Assembly: GCA_017849615.1 (NCBI GenBank)
Contig: JAFIGS010000017.1
Span: 434,001-498,000 of the forward strand
Direction: 5' to 3'
From: Pseudolabrys sp.
Lineage (GTDB): Bacteria > Pseudomonadota > Alphaproteobacteria > Rhizobiales > Xanthobacteraceae
Length of the DNA: 64,000 nt
Shown here: positions 8,859-53,460 of the stretch, piece after piece
Layout of the letters: every line of letters begins with the position of its first letter
Position numbering within the stretch: the stretch's first letter is position 1
Position numbers and translations under genes: made by a program
The notes under the pieces: generated by a model
Told to the model about the DNA's origin: nothing
Database searches by the model: none
The model's input: only the letters and a program-made list of their open reading frames with translations

Positions 8859-8913
8859 GTGGCGCGAGCCCTCTGGTTTTCCGGCACGCGCCTTTTCGGC
8901 CGGGCCTGCCTGC

Positions 8914-10260
8914 TCACGCTTTCGGCACCGTCAGCGCACAGAGCCCGGCAACATCGGCACTTTGATCCAGCGACCAGATCGCGTCCACGAGCGGCGCGAT
9001 ATCGTGGTCCGGCCGCCACGCCGCTGCGGCGTTGCGCAGCTTGGCTTCCAGCGCTTCGTCACTCATCGGATTGGCCTCGCTGCCGCGCGCCGCCTGCGTC
9101 GAGAGATGATGCACCTTGCCGTCGGCCGTCACGATATCGACGGCGGCGGCAATGGTGGCGAAAGACGGATCGCGCACCACCTCGACCTTGCCGCGCAGCG
9201 CGGCAACCTTAGGATCGGCGACGCATTCGTCGCTGAACTCCTCCGGCCCGGCCTTGCCGCGCAGCAACGCGGCAGCAACGGCGTGCTGCACGCTGACCTG
9301 CGACGGCCGCCCGCTGGTGACCTGCGGACGGTCGGTGCGATCGGCGAGCAACGGGTTGCCGCGCACGATGACTTTGGCAACGTCCACCGCGTCATGATCG
9401 CGCCGCCAGTCGAGCACGCAATCGAGCACCGGATTGATGACGAAGCCGCACGGGTAAGGCTTGTAGGACGTCTCCATGATCTGCCAGGTCTTGCCCCAGC
9501 CTTCGGTCAGGAACGAGAGATCGGGCGGCACGCCCATGGCGTTGTAGAGTCCCTGAACGCCGTTGAGCGGCTCCGGCGGCCCGTCGAAACCCTTCTCGGC
9601 CAGCAGCGCCGACAACAAACCGTTGCGTGCGGCATTGCCGACGCTGGCGCTCTTCGACGCGGTGCCGAGGCTTTCGCAAAGACCGGACGATTGCGTCGCG
9701 GCGGAGCCAAGAGCCCAGACAAGACGCTCGGCATCGAGCCCGATCAGCTTACCGACCGCGGCCGCGGCGCCGAGAACACCGCAAGTCGAGGTGATGTGCC
9801 AGCCCATCGAATAATGCTTCGGCGACACGGCAAGCCCGATGCGGTCCTCGACCTCGTTGCCGATGACAGTGGCGAACAGCAAATCCGGGCCGCTGACATG
9901 ACGCAACTCGGCGAGCGCCAGCAGCGGCGGCACCACCGGCGCTGTCGGGTGGATCACGGTTCGGGTGTGGGTGTCGCAGAAATCGTAGACATTGGCGCCG
10001 GCGGCGTTGAGGAACGCGGCGCTCAGCGCATCGATGCGCTCGCTGCGCCCGGCGAGGGTCGCCTGCCTGCCGCCGGAGAACAGCGCCAAAGTTGCCAGCG
10101 CAATCTCGACCGGCTGCGTCCGGCAACCGGCCAGGGCCACGGCGAAGAAATTCATCACCGAGCGCTTGGCCTGGTGCATCACATGGGCGGGAATGTCCTC
10201 GCGCCGCGTATCGGCGATGAGCTGCGCAAGCTGCCGCGTGACATTGGGTCGGTCGAGCAT
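8914..10260 (-). CDS. MmgE/PrpD family protein
   Basis: The 448-residue product belongs to the MmgE/PrpD family (2-methylcitrate dehydratase, cis-aconitate decarboxylase, iminodisuccinate epimerase). Typical segments include HQAKRSVMNFFAVALAGC near the start, NVYDFCDTHTRTVIHPTAPV and GWHITSTCGVLGAAAAVGKL. ATG 10260 follows GCGAGGACAGTG; an upstream frame extending to 10371 would overlap the neighbouring gene. The family acts on tricarboxylic or dicarboxylic acid intermediates. No prpB/prpC partner is nearby, so it is unlikely to be a standard methylcitrate enzyme; it probably belongs to the adjacent acid-degradation cluster. Confidence 0.85.
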   Translation of the reverse strand: MLDRPNVTRQLAQLIADTRREDIPAHVMHQAKRSVMNFFAVALAGCRTQPVEIALATLALFSGGRQATLAGRSERIDALSAAFLNAAGANVYDFCDTHTRTVIHPTAPVVPPLLALAELRHVSGPDLLFATVIGNEVEDRIGLAVSPKHYSMGWHITSTCGVLGAAAAVGKLIGLDAERLVWALGSAATQSSGLCESLGTASKSASVGNAARNGLLSALLAEKGFDGPPEPLNGVQGLYNAMGVPPDLSFLTEGWGKTWQIMETSYKPYPCGFVINPVLDCVLDWRRDHDAVDVAKVIVRGNPLLADRTDRPQVTSGRPSQVSVQHAVAAALLRGKAGPEEFSDECVADPKVAALRGKVEVVRDPSFATIAAAVDIVTADGKVHHLSTQAARGSEANPMSDEALEAKLRNAAAAWRPDHDIAPLVDAIWSLDQSADVAGLCALTVPKA

Positions 10261-10297
10261 CACTGTCCTCGCAAAAGATCGACCGCTGTCGCGGCCG

Positions 10298-11083
10298 TCA
10301 GGCGCCGGTGAAATTCGGTTTGCGCTTTTCCATGAAAGCCTTGCGGCCTTCCTTGTAGTCTTCGCTGGCAAAGCAGGCCTGAACCATGGCTTCGCAGGCT
10401 GCCAGATCGCGCTCGCTATCGGGCTTGACCGCTTCGCCGACGATGAACTTCACCGAATCGACCGTGAGCGGCGCATTGGCCGCCATGGTTGCGGTGTAAT
10501 CGGCAACGTATTGCTCGAGCGTGTCCGACGGAACGACGCGATTGACAAGCCCCATGCGCTCGGCCTCGTCGGCCGTGAACTGGCGCGCGGTGTAGAAGAT
10601 TTCCTTGGCGAAGGACGGGCCGACGACATCGACCAGCCGCTTGATGCCCTTGAAGCCATAGCCGAGGCCGAGCTTGGCCGCCGGAATGCCGAACTTCGAA
10701 TTGTCGCTGCAGATGCGCATGTCGCAGCACATCGCCAGTGCCATGCCGCCGCCGATGCAGTAGCCACGGATCATGGCGATGGTCGGCTTGGGAAATTCAT
10801 GAAACGCCGCGTAGGCGCGCTCGACGCGAACGCCGTAGCTTCTGACCGCTTCTTCGGTGGAGCGATCCTTCTCGAACCGTGAGATATCGGCGCCGGAGAC
10901 GAAGGCCTTGCCGCCCGCGCCGGAGACAACCATGACACGGATGGCAGGATCGGCCTTGAAGTCGGCGACCACGGATTCGGTCGCCTCCCACATGTCGAGC
11001 GACACCGCGTTGTGTCGCTCCGGATTGTTGAAGATCAGGTGGCCGACCGCGCCATCCTTGCGCGACAGGATCTTGTCGGTCAT
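10298..11083 (-). CDS. Enoyl-CoA hydratase/isomerase family protein
   Basis: The 261-residue crotonase-fold protein begins MTDKILSRKDGAVGHLIFNN. The oxyanion-hole segment GGKAFVSGADISRF and the IRGYCIGGGMALAMCCDMRI segment are present. The following stretch FGIPAAKLGLGYGFKGIKRL has alanine or glycine where classical hydratases carry their second catalytic glutamate, so a reaction other than simple hydration is possible (isomerase, lyase or thioester hydrolase). The ATG follows GGGAGGTTTCG, a strong ribosome binding site. It sits between the hydroxyisobutyrate-dehydrogenase-like and MmgE/PrpD genes in the same direction. Confidence 0.87.
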   Translation of the reverse strand: MTDKILSRKDGAVGHLIFNNPERHNAVSLDMWEATESVVADFKADPAIRVMVVSGAGGKAFVSGADISRFEKDRSTEEAVRSYGVRVERAYAAFHEFPKPTIAMIRGYCIGGGMALAMCCDMRICSDNSKFGIPAAKLGLGYGFKGIKRLVDVVGPSFAKEIFYTARQFTADEAERMGLVNRVVPSDTLEQYVADYTATMAANAPLTVDSVKFIVGEAVKPDSERDLAACEAMVQACFASEDYKEGRKAFMEKRKPNFTGA

Positions 11084-11119
11084 CGAAACCTCCCGATCGG
11101 CCGCAGGACGGCGGCGCCC

Positions 11120-12019
11120 TTACTTGGCGGCCTTGCCCTTGATCTCGACGCCCGCCCATTTCTCGACGGTGCGCGCCGTCGTGGTCAGATCGCCGTTGAA
11201 GCCTTCGATCGACTCGGTGATCGACAGGAGCTGGTTCACGGCATTGCCGACGATCATCGGCACGCCGAGCGACTCGGCGAACTGCACCGCGAGCTTGGCG
11301 TCCTTGTGCATCAGGCCGACGGAGAAGCCGAAGTCGAAGCGCCGGGTGAGCACGCAGCGCGGGAACTTGTCTTCGGTCGCGGTATTGCGGCCGCTGCCCG
11401 AGTTGATGACGGCGATCATGGTGTCGGCATCGAGGCCGGCCTTGGCGCCCATGGCGAGCGCTTCCGACGTCATGGTGACGGCGGTGGCGGACAGGATGTT
11501 GTTGACCAGCTTCATCGCCTGGCCCTGGCCCGGCTCGGCGCCGACCCAGAACATCTTGCCGATGACTTCGACCACCGGCCGCAGCGTTTCGGCCAGATCC
11601 TTCGGACAGGCGACCATCACCGCGACGGTGCCCTTTTCGGCGCCGCTCGGGCCGCCGCTCACCGGCGCGTCGACCGCGGCGATGCCCTTGGCGGCGAGCA
11701 CCGCCGCGACCTCCTTGGCCGCCACCGGACCGGTGGTGGACAGATCGATGAAGGTCTTCACCCTGGAACCGGTGGCGACGTCGGCCGCCACCTTCTTGAC
11801 GATATCCGGCGTCGGCAGGCTGGCCAGCACCGTTTCGGCGCTCGCGGCCACCTCGGCCGGCGAGGCCGCGCGCTTGGCGCCGCGCTGCACCAGACGGGCG
11901 ACGTTGGTTTCGTTGAGGTCGAAGACGGTGACGCCGTAACCCGCCTCGAGGAGGCGTCCGGCCATATGGATGCCCATGCGGCCGACGCCGATGAAGCCCA
12001 GTTCCTGCTTTGCAGACAT
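11120..12019 (-). CDS. NAD(P)-dependent beta-hydroxyacid dehydrogenase (3-hydroxyisobutyrate dehydrogenase family)
   Basis: The 299-residue protein has the N-terminal Rossmann motif GFIGVGRMGIHMAGRLLEAG, the DAPVSGGPSGAEKGT substrate-binding segment typical of beta-hydroxyacid dehydrogenases, and a lysine in GLMHKDAKLAV that corresponds to the catalytic Lys of the family. It should oxidise a 3-hydroxyacid or reduce a semialdehyde in the cytoplasm. It is the second gene of the minus-strand cluster with a carboxymuconolactone-decarboxylase-like protein upstream and a hydratase downstream. The precise hydroxyacid is not indicated by sequence. Confidence 0.87.
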   Translation of the reverse strand: MSAKQELGFIGVGRMGIHMAGRLLEAGYGVTVFDLNETNVARLVQRGAKRAASPAEVAASAETVLASLPTPDIVKKVAADVATGSRVKTFIDLSTTGPVAAKEVAAVLAAKGIAAVDAPVSGGPSGAEKGTVAVMVACPKDLAETLRPVVEVIGKMFWVGAEPGQGQAMKLVNNILSATAVTMTSEALAMGAKAGLDADTMIAVINSGSGRNTATEDKFPRCVLTRRFDFGFSVGLMHKDAKLAVQFAESLGVPMIVGNAVNQLLSITESIEGFNGDLTTTARTVEKWAGVEIKGKAAK

Positions 12020-45622: not shown

Positions 45623-46762
45623 TCAGCCGGCCTTGCGCTTCCAAGGCAGAAAGCCGCCGAGAATAGCGTCGGCGAGAGAGATCGACGGCTCTCCTCCCGA
45701 CCGCGCCCGGTCATGCACCAGTTCGTGGATGAAGCCGAGCTTGCGGATGACCGCCGGCGACAGCACGAACGGATACAGGTCCCGCGCCCCCATCGAGCGG
45801 TTGACGTTATTCATGGCGAAGACATACGGCAGCCAGGCGTCGATGATCTGCTCGATCGTATCGGCGCGGTAGGCGTCGAACGTCACCTTCGCGGCAAAAT
45901 CGCCGGTGTTGTCCACCTTCGGCTTCACCGACATGCCGGACGCCGCCACCATCTCCAGCGTATCGACGATGTGGATGTAGTGGGCCCAGGTCTCGGCGAA
46001 GTCTTCCCACGGGTGGGCGCTGGCATACTGCGACACGAAATTGTCCTGCCAGTCCGCCGGGGGCCCTTCCTTGTAGTGCCGCTGTAGAGCCTCGCCATAG
46101 TCCTGGCTGTCGTCGCCGAACATGGCGCGGCAAGCCTCAAGCTTGCCGCCGTCCCGGATCAGGACGTCCCAATAATAGTGTCCGACCTCGTGGCGGAAGT
46201 GTCCGAGCAGCGTCCGGTAGGGTTCGCCCATGGCAACGCGGCGTTTCTCGCGCTCGGCGTCGTTGGCTTCGGCCAGCGCGATGGTGATGTTGCCGTTGTC
46301 GTGGCCGGTCATCACCTTCGGGGCGCCCTTGGGGGCGGTATCTGCGAGAAATTCGAACGACAGGCCGCGCTCCGGATCCTCAACGAACGTCGTCAGCGGC
46401 AGATTGAGACGGATCAGCGAATAGAACAGCCGATGCTTGGCCATCTCGAGCGCCTGCCACGCGGCCAGATTTCCCGGCACCGAGAGGTCGGGCACGGTCT
46501 TGTTATGACGGCATGCCAAACAATAGGCATCGGTCGTCTCGTCCGGCACGAACCAATTACAGACTCCATGCTCCGCGTTGACGCAGAGCAGCCGGCGCTG
46601 CTCCGGCGCGTTGAGAGGCTTCCACCAATTATCGTCAAGCGGCTCGATCGCCGTCAGTTCGGTCTGGGCCGGGCGATAAGCGAGACGGTGGCCACAGACC
46701 TCACAGGAGACGTTCTCGAAATAGACAATGTTGCCGCAGAACCGGCACTTGAACAGTTTCAT
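45623..46762 (-). CDS. Zinc-ribbon-headed putative metallopeptidase (COG4307-like)
   Basis: The 379-residue protein has an N-terminal ribbon with eight cysteines (positions 6, 9, 20, 23, 60, 68, 81, 84), suggesting two zinc knuckles. The catalytic-type motif FRHEVGHYYWDV puts His191, Glu192 and His195 in an HExxH arrangement; downstream EDFAETWAHYIHIVDT could supply a third ligand. The family is annotated as putative zinc-binding peptidase with unknown substrate. It lies 86 bp downstream of the RpfF-like gene on the same strand, so they may be cotranscribed. Confidence 0.85.
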   Translation of the reverse strand: MKLFKCRFCGNIVYFENVSCEVCGHRLAYRPAQTELTAIEPLDDNWWKPLNAPEQRRLLCVNAEHGVCNWFVPDETTDAYCLACRHNKTVPDLSVPGNLAAWQALEMAKHRLFYSLIRLNLPLTTFVEDPERGLSFEFLADTAPKGAPKVMTGHDNGNITIALAEANDAEREKRRVAMGEPYRTLLGHFRHEVGHYYWDVLIRDGGKLEACRAMFGDDSQDYGEALQRHYKEGPPADWQDNFVSQYASAHPWEDFAETWAHYIHIVDTLEMVAASGMSVKPKVDNTGDFAAKVTFDAYRADTIEQIIDAWLPYVFAMNNVNRSMGARDLYPFVLSPAVIRKLGFIHELVHDRARSGGEPSISLADAILGGFLPWKRKAG

Positions 46763-46848: not shown

Positions 46849-47826
46849 TTATTCAGCAGCCTGCAGCTGCTTCGGCAGCCGGTTCTGCGCGGCGACGAGC
46901 CGCTGCATCAGCCTGAGATCGCGGTCGCTGAGCTTGAGGGCGCAGTCCGCCCATATGCGCACGACGTCGTCGAGTTCATCGAGCGGCATCGGATTGACCC
47001 GACGGCCGACCTCATAGACGGCGCGGATGCCGGCATGGCGGCTCTGGCTGCGCGCGATGTATTCCTTCGCCGCTTCAATCCCCTGCCCCGGCTCCACCAC
47101 CATATGCACCAATCCCGCCTCCTTCATCTCGTCGGCGGTGTAGGTGCGGCCGCTGAGCATCATGTCCTCGGCGAAGGCGGCATTGGCCCGTCGCGCGACG
47201 ATGCTGTAGGCGCCCATGCCGGGAAACAAGCCGAACAAGGTCTCGGGAAAGCCGAATTTGGCTGTGCGCTCGGCGATGACAACATTGAACGACAGCAGCG
47301 ACTCCAGGCCGCCGCCCAGCGCGTCGCCCTGCGCCAGGCCGATCGTGATGATCGGCAGGTCGAGCGCGGTATAAAACCGGTGCAGGACGCGCACGCAAGA
47401 CTTGCCGTAGTCAACCAGCGCCTGCCGGTCCTGATTGCGAATGCAGGCTGCGAACAGGTCGAGATCACCACCGAGGCTGAAGACGCCGGGCGAGCGCGAG
47501 CCTGCGACCAGATAGCGAAGTTCGGTTGGCTCGGCGCCGAACCGCGCCACGATGCCGTCTTGCATGGCGTGGATATCATCGAGCAAGGCCAGGCTGTAGC
47601 TGGGCCGCCCCTTGGCGCGCATGAAGCTCCACAAGGCGCCGTACTTATCGTCGAAGGACACGTCGAGGTGGTTGAGGCAGAACAACCGGGCGGCGTCAGC
47701 CGCCTTCTGCAAATCAACTGGTCGGCTTTCGAGACGAGCCCCGCTGTCTGCCTGCATTGCGGGCGCCAGCGCAAACGGGACAAACCGGCCGGCAGCAACG
47801 GAGTCGCGCGACGCAAAACTCGTCAT
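46849..47826 (-). CDS. rpfF: RpfF-like crotonase: diffusible signal factor (DSF) synthase candidate
   Basis: The 325-residue crotonase-fold protein resembles RpfF, which makes cis-2-unsaturated fatty acid signals from acyl-ACP. The diagnostic block is GGGLESLLSFNVVIAERTAK then FGFPETLFGLFPGMGAYSIV: Glu175 and Glu195 are 20 residues apart, matching the two catalytic glutamates of RpfF (Glu141/Glu161 in Xanthomonas). The C-terminal LDELDDVVRIWADCALKLSD and LRLMQRLVAAQNR also match RpfF rather than ordinary hydratases. ATG 47826 lacks a strong ribosome binding site; a TTG at 47859 is in frame. It diverges from a PAS-GGDEF-EAL gene. Confidence 0.85.
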   Translation of the reverse strand: MTSFASRDSVAAGRFVPFALAPAMQADSGARLESRPVDLQKAADAARLFCLNHLDVSFDDKYGALWSFMRAKGRPSYSLALLDDIHAMQDGIVARFGAEPTELRYLVAGSRSPGVFSLGGDLDLFAACIRNQDRQALVDYGKSCVRVLHRFYTALDLPIITIGLAQGDALGGGLESLLSFNVVIAERTAKFGFPETLFGLFPGMGAYSIVARRANAAFAEDMMLSGRTYTADEMKEAGLVHMVVEPGQGIEAAKEYIARSQSRHAGIRAVYEVGRRVNPMPLDELDDVVRIWADCALKLSDRDLRLMQRLVAAQNRLPKQLQAAE

Positions 47827-48366
47827 CTGACCACCACGCTTACAACGCAACAGACACAACGGCCCACAAAGCAGGCCGTTAAGGATTATTTTACCTTAAC
47901 ACTTAATTAACAATCCGCCAGCGCATTCGTTCAACTTGGTGAACGCCGAGCCGCTTGCCGACACTTTTCGGCGGTCATTGGCAGTAATCCCAAATGTTAA
48001 TCTACATTAACAAGACTATTGAAATTGCAATGACCTGTCTTTGATGCAACCGGCCTGTTCCGCCGCGCCGCCGTGATGAGCCAATAACCAGCGAGATTCT
48101 GACGGCCCTGCACGCTCACTCTTCGGGCGCCGGTTGCGATGGGTTGCTCCCGTTCGGCCGCAGGGTTGCATGGCATCGAGGGCGATCGCGCGCGGCCGGA
48201 CGAGTAAGCCAGGCCGCCGCAGTCGCCGAATCGCGCAAAATTGCGCACTATTTGAACTGATAGAGTTGACGTTTTTTAAGCACGTCCGACGGCAGTTGAC
48301 TTCGTTTGCTTGGTGTTGAGTTTCAGCAGGTAGCATTTCTGGACCCGAGGAAGTCGCGCCGACACC
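47827..48366. other. Divergent intergenic region between rpfF-like and GGDEF-EAL genes
   Basis: The 540-bp gap has no convincing gene. Its left part (47880-48030) is AT-rich against the background and contains four TTAA tetramers, one pair in CtrA-box spacing. Its right half is GC-rich apart from an AT patch near 48270-48320 (TTGAC elements at 48265 and 48296), which probably carries the promoter of the GGDEF-EAL gene. Confidence 0.5.
47896..47911. promoter_or_regulatory. CtrA-like box TTAA-N7-TTAAC
   Basis: TTAA, seven bases and TTAAC match the CtrA response-regulator consensus of alphaproteobacteria. It is 70 bp upstream of the rpfF-like start. A second near-match with six-base spacing lies at 47997-48011. 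Binding is inferred only. Confidence 0.45.
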
Positions 48367-50694
48367 ATGCTCATCAAGCAATTGATGCAAATCCGCCGCG
48401 CCGATGCCGAGCTGCCGAACGAAGTTCGCGCCGCGTTGGTGGAGTCGTTGTTTGCACCGATTGCTTCGCTCGCGATCGGTGCCATTAATTGTTCCATCAT
48501 CGGCATGCTGGTTGCATGGAACCTGAGCAACCATCAGATCATGCTGACCTCTACCGCCATTCTCGGCGTCGGCGCGTTGAGGGTGGTGTCGGCGCTGTTT
48601 TACCGGCGATCCCGAAACCTGGCGCTCCGTCATGTCAGGTTCTGGGAAACCTCCTATGAATATGGCGCATGGGCCTTTTCCGGCCTGCTCGGCCTCCTGT
48701 GCTGGCTGACGCTAACGCAGACGGACAATTCCGCGCTCCAGATGGCGGTGGTCACGACCGCAACCGGTTACGCCGCGGCCATCGCCGGCCGCAACGCCGG
48801 CCGGCCTTTTATCGCCGGCGGCCAGTTCACCCTGGTGATGCTGCCGATCGTGGTCGGACTGCTGATCTACCCGGACTGGACCCATAAAGTCCTCGGATTC
48901 GTCGGATTGCTGTTCATCTACGGCATGATGGACATCACCCTCGGCATCCGCGACGTCATCTTCCAGGCGCTGATCATGACGCGCAAGGAAGCGGCGCTGG
49001 CCGCCCGCTTCGAGGAACAGGCCAACCGTTTCGACGCTGCCCTCAACAACATGTCGCACGGCCTGTGCATGCTCGACGGCCACGACCGCTTGCAGGTCTG
49101 GAACGAGCGTTTCCTCGAGCTTCTGCACCTGCAGAACGCCTCGGTCCGGGTCGGCATGCGGATTTCGCAGATCGTCCGGCACAGCCTGCGCGCCCGTAAT
49201 CACACCTCGGCCAGCGTCAAGCATCTGGTCCACGACCTGCTCAAAGGGCTGCGCCAGGACAATTTCGACCAGTTCCAGGTCTCGCTGGACGGGTCGCGCA
49301 CTCTGGCCATCTCCCGCCGCATGATGCCGGCCGGCGGCTCGGTGGTCATTTTCGAGGACGTGACCGAGCGCAACAGCGCGCAGGAGAAGATCGCGCGGCT
49401 GGCGCGCTTCGACGAACTGACGGGGCTCGCCAACCGCACCCAGTTCCGCGAGCGCATCGCCGAGATGCTGGCCGCGGTGAAGGACCGCGCCAATCACCTC
49501 GCCATTCATCTGATCGATCTCGACCGCTTCAAGACCGTCAACGACACGCTCGGCCACCCGATCGGCGACCTGCTGCTCAAGGAAGTGGCGACGAGGCTCA
49601 CCGCCCTCGTCCGCCCCGGCGACATGATCACGCGTTTCGGCGGCGACGAGTTCGTCATCCTCCAGACCAACACCTCACGCCAGCAGTCGGCTCACGCGCT
49701 GGCCGCGCGCATCGTCAAGGCGTTGAAGGAGCCGTTCCACATCGCCGGCCACCGCATCGATGTCGGCGCGTCCATCGGCATCGCCATGTCGCCGCATGAC
49801 GGCGTCGATGCCGACGAACTGATCAAGAAAGCCGACATGGCTCTCTACGCCGCCAAGAGCAGCGGCGGCGGCGGCCACCGTTTCTTCGCCATCGAGATGG
49901 AGGACGCCGCGCAGGAGCGCCGCTCGCTCGAACTCGATCTGCGCGAAGCCCTCGCCCACGAACAGTTCCATCTTTACTACCAGCCGCTGGTCGACCTGCA
50001 CACCGGGCGGGTCACGACCTGCGAAGCGCTGCTGCGCTGGACCCACCCGCTTCGCGGCAGCATTCCGCCGTCGGAGTTCATCCCGGTCGCCGAGGAGACG
50101 GGTCTCATCATCGCGCTGGGCGAGTGGGTGCTGAACCGCGCCTGCGCCGAAGCGGCGGAATGGCCGCGCCACGTGCGCGTCGCGGTGAACCTGTCGCCGG
50201 TCCAGTTCCGCGACGAGGGATTGGGACTGCAGGTGATCGCCGCGCTGGCCAAATCCGGCCTGTCGGCGCAGCGGCTTGAGCTCGAAGTGACCGAGCGTCT
50301 GCTGCTGGAAGACAACGACAGCACGCTGGAGACCATGCATCAGCTGCACGAGCTCGGCATCAGCCTGTCGCTGGACGACTTCGGCACCGGCTACTCGTCG
50401 CTCAATTACCTGCGCAAATTCCCGTTCCAGAAGATCAAGATCGATCGCTCGTTCATCACCGATGTCGGCGACGGCCGCGATGCCCGCGCCATCATCGGCG
50501 CGGTGGCGAGCCTCGGCGCCAGCCTCGACAAGACCGTCGTCGCCGAAGGCATCGAGACCGAAGAGCAGATGGCTCTGGTGCGCTCGCAGGGCTGCCAGGA
50601 AGGCCAGGGCTATCTGTTCGGCAAGGCGATGCCGGCGGCCGAGATCCGCACGCGGCTGGACAAGCCGATCATCGCCATCCGCCGGGTCGCCTGA
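48367..50694 (+). CDS. Membrane-anchored PAS-GGDEF-EAL protein (cyclic-di-GMP synthase/hydrolase)
   Basis: The 775-residue protein has about five hydrophobic segments in the first 200 residues, then a PAS-like domain (about 215-335, with FDAALNNMSHGLCMLDGHDR and ending VIFEDVTERN), an intact GGDEF domain with GGDEF at 425-429 and an intact EAL domain with EAL at 553-555, DDFGTGYSSLNYL and EGIET. Both catalytic sites look functional. It is divergent from the rpfF-like gene. In Burkholderia-type systems a PAS-GGDEF-EAL protein (RpfR) is the DSF receptor, so a sensor role is a natural hypothesis; here the RpfF-interaction domain is replaced by membrane helices. Confidence 0.92.
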   Translation: MLIKQLMQIRRADAELPNEVRAALVESLFAPIASLAIGAINCSIIGMLVAWNLSNHQIMLTSTAILGVGALRVVSALFYRRSRNLALRHVRFWETSYEYGAWAFSGLLGLLCWLTLTQTDNSALQMAVVTTATGYAAAIAGRNAGRPFIAGGQFTLVMLPIVVGLLIYPDWTHKVLGFVGLLFIYGMMDITLGIRDVIFQALIMTRKEAALAARFEEQANRFDAALNNMSHGLCMLDGHDRLQVWNERFLELLHLQNASVRVGMRISQIVRHSLRARNHTSASVKHLVHDLLKGLRQDNFDQFQVSLDGSRTLAISRRMMPAGGSVVIFEDVTERNSAQEKIARLARFDELTGLANRTQFRERIAEMLAAVKDRANHLAIHLIDLDRFKTVNDTLGHPIGDLLLKEVATRLTALVRPGDMITRFGGDEFVILQTNTSRQQSAHALAARIVKALKEPFHIAGHRIDVGASIGIAMSPHDGVDADELIKKADMALYAAKSSGGGGHRFFAIEMEDAAQERRSLELDLREALAHEQFHLYYQPLVDLHTGRVTTCEALLRWTHPLRGSIPPSEFIPVAEETGLIIALGEWVLNRACAEAAEWPRHVRVAVNLSPVQFRDEGLGLQVIAALAKSGLSAQRLELEVTERLLLEDNDSTLETMHQLHELGISLSLDDFGTGYSSLNYLRKFPFQKIKIDRSFITDVGDGRDARAIIGAVASLGASLDKTVVAEGIETEEQMALVRSQGCQEGQGYLFGKAMPAAEIRTRLDKPIIAIRRVA

Positions 50695-52675: not shown

Positions 52676-53047
52676 ATGTCCAAATACGAAGCGCTCGGCC
52701 AGTTCCTGAAGGCCCAAAAGGCCCAATTGGTCCCGATGACTTTTGCGCAGATCGAGCAGGTCATCGGCGCGGCGCTGCCGCCTTCCGCTCACAAGCACCG
52801 GCCGTGGTGGAGCAACAATGGCTCGAACAGCGCGCTGACGCGCGTCTGGCTGGATGCCGGCTTCAAGAGCGAGCAGGTTGATATGGAGGGGCAGAAACTC
52901 ACATTTCGCCGTGTCGAGGCCGAGAAAAAGACCGTTGCCAATTCAACCGGCCGCCATCCGTTGTTCGGCGCGATGAAGGGCACAGTCATCATTGCCGAAG
53001 GCACCGACCTTACCCAGCCGGCGGACCCGGACTGGGGTGACCTTTGA
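52676..53047 (+). CDS. Putative antitoxin: DUF7662-like N-terminal domain with VapB/AbrB-type toxin-binding tail
   Basis: The 123-residue protein has two parts. Residues 1-80 (MSKYEALGQFLKAQKAQLVP, MTFAQIEQVIGAALPPSA, HRPWWSNN, ALTRVWLDAGF) match a small domain frequent in bacteria that I know as DUF7662. Residues 93-123 (RHPLFGAMKGTVIIAEGTDL, then PADPDWGDL) resemble the C-terminal tail by which VapB/AbrB-type antitoxins wrap PIN toxins. The gene overlaps the PIN-domain gene by one base (TGATG) and follows a palindromic operator. Therefore it is a good candidate antitoxin, even though it lacks a canonical AbrB or RHH domain. Confidence 0.7.
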   Translation: MSKYEALGQFLKAQKAQLVPMTFAQIEQVIGAALPPSAHKHRPWWSNNGSNSALTRVWLDAGFKSEQVDMEGQKLTFRRVEAEKKTVANSTGRHPLFGAMKGTVIIAEGTDLTQPADPDWGDL

Positions 53048-53460
53048 TGCAGCCTATTCTGCTGGATACGTGCGCCGCCATCTGGATGAGCACCGACCAA
53101 CCCGTAAAAGCACAAGCAGCAGCGTTGATGAATTCCGCTTACAGCGAAGGCTCACCCGTTTTTGTTTCGCCCATCACCGCCTGGGAAATTGGGTTACTCG
53201 TTTCACGAAACAGGCTGAGCCTTCAGTTTTCGCCGCAAGTATGGTTTTCCCGGTTGTTCGCCTCATCCGAAATTACCCTCGCCGAGCTGCCGCCGGACCT
53301 GTTCATCGCCTCGTCGTTTCTGCCCGGCAAGCCACCCCGCGATCCGGTCGACCGCATCATTGCCGCGACCGCGCGGCACCTCGGCGCGACATTGATCACG
53401 CGCGACAGCGCCCTGCTCGGCTATGCCAAGCAGGGCCATCTCAGCGCGATACCGTGCTGA
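53047..53460 (+). CDS. VapC-like PIN-domain ribonuclease toxin
   Basis: The 137-residue PIN-domain protein opens MQPILLDTCAAIWMS. Acidic active-site residues are Asp7, Glu47 (AWEIG), Asp99/Asp102 (PRDPVDRIIAATA) and Asp120 (ITRDSALLGY). It should cleave RNA unless held by the antitoxin encoded immediately upstream. The pair overlaps by one base. The stop is directly adjacent, with no spacer, to the stop codon of the convergent dehydratase gene. The DTCAAIW start matches the VapC subgroup found with AbrB-like antitoxins. Confidence 0.87.
   Translation: MQPILLDTCAAIWMSTDQPVKAQAAALMNSAYSEGSPVFVSPITAWEIGLLVSRNRLSLQFSPQVWFSRLFASSEITLAELPPDLFIASSFLPGKPPRDPVDRIIAATARHLGATLITRDSALLGYAKQGHLSAIPC

Follow-up and report, generated by a model that had tools for sequence, protein, structure and literature searches.

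A crotonase of the RpfF family beside a membrane PAS-GGDEF-EAL protein in Pseudolabrys: a candidate two-gene circuit of fatty-acid signalling and cyclic di-GMP

Introduction

The window analysed here, a stretch of 64,000 nucleotides from Pseudolabrys sp. (assembly GCA_017849615.1, contig JAFIGS010000017.1, positions 434,001 to 498,000 of the forward strand), holds a crotonase gene and, divergent to it, a gene for a membrane protein with PAS, GGDEF and EAL domains. An earlier note, made from the sequence alone, had read the two as a possible pair of an RpfF-like synthase of diffusible signal factor (DSF) and a membrane-bound receptor acting through cyclic di-GMP (c-di-GMP). The locus raises the question of whether the two genes form a signalling circuit and, if they do, which part of the membrane protein perceives the signal. 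We lean towards a two-gene circuit of DSF and c-di-GMP whose receptor is a one-component membrane protein: sequence comparisons suggest that the crotonase probably makes a fatty-acid signal and that its partner probably senses it. We take the two to work together because their linkage persists through several gene orders, because they are present or absent jointly, and because the synthases sort by receptor type.

RpfC/RpfG and RpfR have been named as the core DSF receptors (PMC4504480). Clusters of rpfF, rpfG and rpfC are described in xanthomonads, Methylophaga, Leptospirillum, Thiobacillus and Methylobacillus (PMC4504480), and signalling by Burkholderia DSF (BDSF) through RpfR is reported to be widespread in beta- and gammaproteobacteria (PMC8846402).

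Results

Identity of the crotonase

The crotonase gene and its diagnostic positions are the following.

46849..47826, minus strand: RpfF-family crotonase, probable synthase of DSF (a cis-2-enoic acid), 325 amino acids (open reading frame, NCBIfam, PDB matches, trees)
47302..47304, minus strand: codon of the catalytic Glu175, invariant in 18 aligned proteins and present in 126/127 rows of a larger alignment
47242..47244, minus strand: codon of the catalytic Glu195, invariant in the 18 aligned proteins and present in 119/127 rows (Asp in 8)
47203..47226, minus strand: FPGMGAYS segment, residues 201-208, with FPGMG in 117/127 crotonase rows

Reading frame and residues are as the earlier note had given them, with the two glutamates 20 residues apart; translation starts at the ATG at 47826, a TTG lying farther upstream at 47859. 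Pfam assigns the protein to ECH_1, and its score against the NCBIfam family PRK08788 is 358.2 bits (cut-off 177). Against the RpfF equivalog NF053515 it reaches 217.5 bits, below the cut-off of 550. Two calibrations bear on this value: a xanthomonad-type RpfF close to 7zq7 and 3m6m (locus L203) scores 579.7 bits, and L212, closely related to the solved RpfF 6dgn, scores 181.2 bits. The miss says little, since the 6dgn relative is also below the cut-off, which seems, from these scores, to cover only the xanthomonad branch; we assign the crotonase to the wider family PRK08788 and not to the equivalog. The top four PDB matches (E 4e-55 to 4e-49) are 7zq7, 3m6m, 6dgn and 5fus, of which 3m6m and 6dgn carry the name RpfF, whereas 7zq7 and 5fus are named crotonases yet match known RpfF types closely.

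Both motifs had been said to separate DSF synthases from ordinary enoyl-CoA hydratases. FPGMGAYS occurs in none of the seven other crotonases of the same genome that were aligned. The glutamate pair was rejected as evidence for RpfF over hydratases: 4 of the 7 have both residues, so that the pair carries no weight. The separation was also examined in a tree, built by a quick method, of 115 crotonases from the retrieved loci together with the seven hydratases, leaving out 12 near-identical or cut crotonases and loci L157-L171, which repeat other loci. A branch of length 4.43, with a support of 99 in the Shimodaira-Hasegawa-like approximate likelihood ratio test (SH-aLRT), sets the seven hydratases apart from the other rows, and the window crotonase stands on the RpfF side, in a clade of 27 rows with a support of 99. 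A membrane partner accompanies 24 of these rows; L172 and L192 have no partner in the retrieved DNA, and L095 lies at a contig end. Judged by sequence, the crotonase is a member of the RpfF family.

Architecture of the partner protein

The partner gene and its domains, including a domain of six transmembrane helices (6TM), are the following.

48367..50694, plus strand: membrane 6TM-PAS-GGDEF-EAL protein, 775 amino acids, probable receptor and c-di-GMP enzyme (open reading frame, Pfam)
48367..49011, plus strand: 6TM domain, about residues 1-215, with no Pfam family, common to the examined linked partners (alignment, AlphaFold2)
48790..48807, plus strand: R142-N-A-G-R146-P147 motif in the turn between transmembrane helices 4 and 5 (TM4 and TM5), placed on the cytoplasmic side by counting helices
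49042..49386, plus strand: PAS_7 domain, residues 226-340, missing in sphingomonad partners (Pfam)
49405..49866, plus strand: GGDEF domain, residues 347-500, with the GGDEF motif at 425-429 and the I-site RPGD at 416-419 (Pfam, motifs)
49936..50625, plus strand: EAL domain, residues 524-753, with intact EAL, N, EVTE, DDFGTGYSS, K and AEGIET motifs (Pfam, motifs)

Pfam and the motifs agree with the order that the earlier note had proposed, a PAS domain before intact GGDEF and EAL domains, and with the c-di-GMP output it had assumed. Since both motif sets are intact, synthesis and hydrolysis of c-di-GMP are both possible. The same holds for nearly all linked homologues: the GGDEF motif is intact in 64/66 (AGDEF in L115 and L285), E-x-L is present in 66/66, and DDFG in 65/66, the remaining row being cut by a contig end.

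A Pfam search of the partner found no family N-terminal to the PAS domain. For residues 1-218, AlphaFold2 predicts six long helices (32-53, 56-81, 90-118, 122-142, 147-167 and 171-217) with a mean pLDDT of 93.7. Foldseek with the model of the 6TM domain alone gave no match at E 0.001, and with the model of residues 1-345 the leading matches were mainly PAS domains. The turn between TM4 and TM5 has the pattern R-[ND]-A-x-R in the linked partners, with R142, A144 and R146 in 37/37 aligned proteins and N143 in 36/37. The 6TM domain also occurs in order genomes on short proteins with open frames of about 390-440 amino acids, which, judged from length alone, may be plain diguanylate cyclases.

Conservation of the gene pair

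Across Hyphomicrobiales the pair is conserved, and sphingomonads carry a version of it that lacks PAS. Gene counts at loci rest on tblastn throughout. The sample of near relatives comprised 60 genomes, including that of the window, and the crotonase was found in 24 of them at a threshold of E 1e-40. Residues 1-338 of the partner, used as a query, matched at E 1e-60 or better in 23 of these 24 genomes and in 0 of the other 36, where the best match was 3e-36 (G054). The single exception, G045, has a crotonase 44 percent identical and belongs to the RpfC type described below. Within the genus, 22/36 genomes carry both genes and 14/36 neither, several of the 14 being incomplete assemblies; all 22 pairs are adjacent and divergent, though the outer neighbours vary among loci.

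The order sample comprised 347 genomes, with thresholds of E 1e-35 for the crotonase and 205 bits for a profile of the 6TM domain. The crotonase occurs in 46 genomes, and the 6TM domain scores at least 205 bits in 15, all of them among the 46 (hypergeometric 7e-15, a value that ignores the relatedness of the genomes). In 14 of the 15 the 6TM gene was observed beside the crotonase; in G208, where each of the two genes comes to within about 600 bases of a contig end, adjacency is presumed. A GGDEF-EAL partner accompanies 39 of the 46 crotonases. It is the membrane 6TM-PAS-GGDEF-EAL protein in 16, counting G208 as presumed and G230 as far as its contig extends, and in 23 the crotonase is convergent with an RpfC-like hybrid kinase that is followed by a REC-PAS-GGDEF-EAL match over the full length (Pfam on one representative). 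These 23 loci (L096-L101, L105, L108, L109, L112-L114, L116-L121, L123 and L125-L128) keep the order rpfF-rpfC-rpfG, but with GGDEF-EAL in place of the HD-GYP domain of RpfG. The other seven are varied: L132 and L133 have an RpfC-like kinase nearby together with a REC-kinase, and their 17 kb showed no GGDEF-EAL gene; L104 has a REC-PAS-GGDEF gene 8 kb off, cut by the locus end; L130 has a GGDEF-EAL gene 7 kb off; and L102, L110 and L111 have neither partner in the 17 kb retrieved. The membrane-type partner is present in 36 of the 67 genus and order loci, in a divergent (22), convergent (7) or tandem arrangement, the last with the membrane protein gene first in 5 loci and the crotonase gene first in 2.

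Beyond the order, the crotonase was found in 21/289 genomes of a class sample (E 1e-35) and 51/397 genomes of a phylum sample (E 1e-30). Sixty of these loci, a subset of all class and phylum matches, were examined. At 38 the crotonase is convergent with an RpfC-like kinase (truncated by a contig end in one case) and at 11 with an RpfR-like gene; one locus (L221) is of the membrane type, and at the remaining 10 another gene or nothing was found. One of the 11 RpfR-like genes was verified as RpfR through matches of its RpfF-interaction (FI) and PAS domains to 6dga and 6dgg. A set of named relatives added the best 80 of 530 loci, several on the same contigs as loci of the genus and order samples; the 6TM domain is present in 39/80 and an RpfC-like kinase in 14/80. 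In many Sphingomonas and Sphingobium, Parasphingopyxis and some Novosphingobium loci, the crotonase is convergent with a 6TM-GGDEF-EAL protein of about 625-760 amino acids, whose 6TM part is 30-43 percent identical to that of the window (43 percent in S. paucimobilis, E 4e-35). No such neighbour accompanies the crotonase of Erythrobacter-like members and of several Novosphingobium, and 209 kb separate the crotonase from the 6TM gene in G505. In Parasphingopyxis L244 a second, different membrane GGDEF-EAL gene (8910-11255) lies directly behind the crotonase-linked one.

These neighbourhoods bear on the possibility of a metabolic crotonase, a thioesterase or hydratase, whose pairing serves lipid homeostasis and not cell-cell signalling. 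The name that NCBIfam gives to the family is indeed no more specific than 'crotonase/enoyl-CoA hydratase family protein'; yet the protein stands among RpfF relatives that adjoin RpfC-like kinases or RpfR, and the 39 order-sample partners above carry c-di-GMP domains, which makes a purely metabolic role very improbable.

A careful tree of 60 crotonases was then compared with receptor type. One clade, with support 100/100, unites 13 of the 17 Hyphomicrobiales membrane-type rows with 18 sphingomonad rows (13 linked, 5 unlinked), and the 12 RpfC-linked Hyphomicrobiales crotonases stand apart from it; the other four membrane-type rows (L103, L122, L129, L131) are placed elsewhere. In the main, the synthase appears to follow the receptor type and not the taxon. 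The earlier note had named as fatal to its proposal a crotonase clustering with hydratases and a pair confined to this genome; both comparisons, the tree and the gene neighbourhoods, came out in its favour.

Several observations weigh against the favoured circuit. The wider 6TM family also occurs without the crotonase: 89/347 order genomes have weaker 6TM matches only, and 10 of these carry the crotonase against 8.3 expected, a count that leaves out G323, whose divergent crotonase (2e-35) just misses the cut. The 6TM profile was built from linked proteins and its ranking leans to them; a single-sequence search split the genomes identically. Two more distant unlinked homologues, L347 and L348, also have N-A-x-R, their genomes showing no crotonase match, and fall within the linked clade of the 6TM tree. 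The membrane-type groups L103/L122, L129/L131 and L221 lie outside the main clades, so that one common origin is at most conjectural, and the L221 crotonase has neither Glu175 nor FPGMG. Among the best 80 of 530 named loci, 27 have no 6TM or RpfC-like gene in the retrieved DNA, some of it short contigs. At L148 (G018) the receptor gene is split. Finally, an alignment of the 6TM domain with the transmembrane input of RpfC-like kinases by hhalign gave a probability below 5 percent in both modes.

Two of these loci deserve a description of their own. At L221 (G323) the very divergent crotonase, with Asp for Glu175, is yet in tandem with a 6TM-PAS-GGDEF-EAL gene. At L148 the receptor is matched in two frames (9084-11319; residues 1-177 and 201-775), which may reflect a broken copy or an assembly error.

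The spread of 6TM relatives in genomes without the crotonase would also suit a protein that senses a cue other than DSF, such as membrane state or another lipid, and that controls the crotonase, or is controlled by it, through c-di-GMP or direct contact. RpfC binds RpfF and regulates it negatively. Binding to RpfF and negative regulation of it are also reported for RpfR (PMC6361424), so a receptor partner can also be an inhibitor. We nevertheless regard a different cue as unlikely: among near relatives N-A-x-R is confined to the linked set, being found in 0/14 of the nearest unlinked homologues (L330-L333 and L335-L344, from crotonase-free genomes), and the pairing persists across several gene orders, with or without PAS. 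The crotonase-free relatives at L332, L333, L335 and L344 have an altered motif (RTYGR, RTFGR, RAYGR or RNYGQ) and are possible sensors of other lipids or foreign signals. In the genus coded g26, none of 12 sampled genomes has the crotonase, yet 6TM-PAS-GGDEF-EAL relatives are present.

Which domain is the sensor

The earlier note had likened the partner to RpfR, with the FI domain replaced by membrane helices and the PAS domain as receptor. With RpfR the window pair shares the GGDEF and EAL domains and the adjacency to rpfF. A BLASTP comparison of the RpfR FI domain with the partner detected no FI domain (best E 0.32 over 18 residues), so the absence of that part stood; the view of an RpfR with one domain exchanged did not, as PAS_7 is unlike the PAS of RpfR. 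The RpfR residues that contact the ligand are known (PMC6361424), and a profile alignment found no counterparts of S169, N172, Y183, R187 and N202 in the partner; BLASTP with the RpfR PAS produced no persuasive match (best E 0.17 over 13 residues).

An RpfR-like mechanism, in which the cytoplasmic PAS domain binds the fatty acid and the helices merely anchor the protein, could appeal to the order PAS-GGDEF-EAL, which matches RpfR, and to the presence of PAS in 21/21 Hyphomicrobiales-type linked rows. It is rather improbable in view of the lacking ligand residues, and because 27/37 aligned linked proteins keep the 6TM domain and have no PAS at all; moreover, a domain in the PAS position occurs in unlinked homologues too. 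On these grounds PAS was rejected as the conserved sensor, and it is probably not the main one, as far as sequence comparison can tell. We place fatty-acid sensing in the 6TM domain, since it is the sole sensory part common to the linked partners.

Discussion

Proposed mechanism

The circuit that we favour would work in four steps. The crotonase, by analogy with its family, would convert 3-hydroxyacyl-ACP, like RpfF, into a cis-2-unsaturated fatty acid in free form. This product would partition into the inner membrane, where the divergent protein would bind it through its 6TM domain, probably on the inner-leaflet side of the bundle, the half in which R72, Y97, R142, N143, R146 and Q153 are conserved. 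In the predicted structure TM6 extends as a single helix (171-227) into the cytoplasm, and the change could be relayed to GGDEF-EAL through PAS in Hyphomicrobiales and directly in sphingomonads. The turnover of c-di-GMP would then change; by analogy with RpfR and RpfG, the net effect is likelier to be more hydrolysis by EAL.

Relation to known systems

RpfF/RpfR of Burkholderia and Cronobacter (PMC6361424, PMC4504480) likewise places an RpfF-family synthase beside a PAS-GGDEF-EAL protein, a one-protein receptor with c-di-GMP output; the window partner differs in being a membrane protein with a 6TM in place of the FI domain and an unlike PAS, which the sphingomonad partners lack altogether. With RpfF/RpfC/RpfG of Xanthomonas (PMC4504480, PMC5391125) the window pair shares an RpfF and a multi-transmembrane sensor, but it has neither kinase nor phosphorelay, its output is fused directly, and hhalign finds no similarity between its 6TM profile and the RpfC-like input. 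RpfC is reported to bind DSF with a 22-residue N-terminal stretch (PMC5391125). Pfam found no RpfC-type HisKA-HATPase-REC-Hpt output in the partner. When the window's own genome was compared with the RpfC-like kinase, the matches at E 1e-20 began at residue 182 or later, beyond the transmembrane part, with one exception beginning at 112 (31 percent).

To our knowledge, no synthase adjoins PA1396 of P. aeruginosa. This membrane sensor perceives DSF through its transmembrane helices, of which the last two (IV and V) are required (PMC6536496); it is a histidine kinase with five helices, and we cite it as a precedent for such sensing, not as an established homologue of the window 6TM domain. An N-x-x-R run precedes the last two helices in many 6TM and RpfC-like proteins, which we mention as a lead only. 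ImcA of P. aeruginosa (structure 8wcn, PMC10904736) is also counted among the closest known systems.

A literature search for an alphaproteobacterial RpfF circuit or for such a receptor returned none among the matches listed, most subscription papers and all preprints being outside its scope. Within the literature searched, a known synthase family and a known output thus appear to be joined to a different sensor without a Pfam family, a receptor type so far undescribed there. On a broader proposal we stand evenly divided: that this would be a third core DSF system beside RpfF-RpfC-RpfG and RpfF-RpfR, in which the 6TM domain with R-N-A-x-R is a fatty-acid receptor fused to GGDEF-EAL, present with PAS in Hyphomicrobiales and without it in Sphingomonadales, and passed on by descent or exchange together with its own RpfF branch. 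If so, c-di-GMP-linked quorum sensing by fatty acids would also be common in Alphaproteobacteria, its receptor would need neither a phosphorelay nor a PAS pocket, and synthase-free 6TM relatives such as those of g26 would sense other lipids or the signals of neighbours. The search signature, R-N-A-x-R between TM4 and TM5 beside an RpfF gene, locates the system in cultured strains, among them Chelatococcus albus and species of Sphingobium and Sphingomonas, and would allow one to test directly whether a c-di-GMP enzyme of the membrane senses fatty acids.

Other features of the window

47827..48366, no strand: divergent intergenic region of 540 bp between the crotonase and its partner

A search of this region for repeats or an operator gave nothing convincing, the repeats being short and chance-like. 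Immediately downstream of the crotonase, in the same orientation, lies a gene for a zinc-ribbon and Peptidase_Mx protein (45623-46762, Pfam), whose cluster, c8, is found in 8 compared loci. Farther off, at 52676-53460, a short DUF7662 gene overlaps a PIN-domain gene, and by their Pfam domains the two look like an antitoxin-toxin pair.

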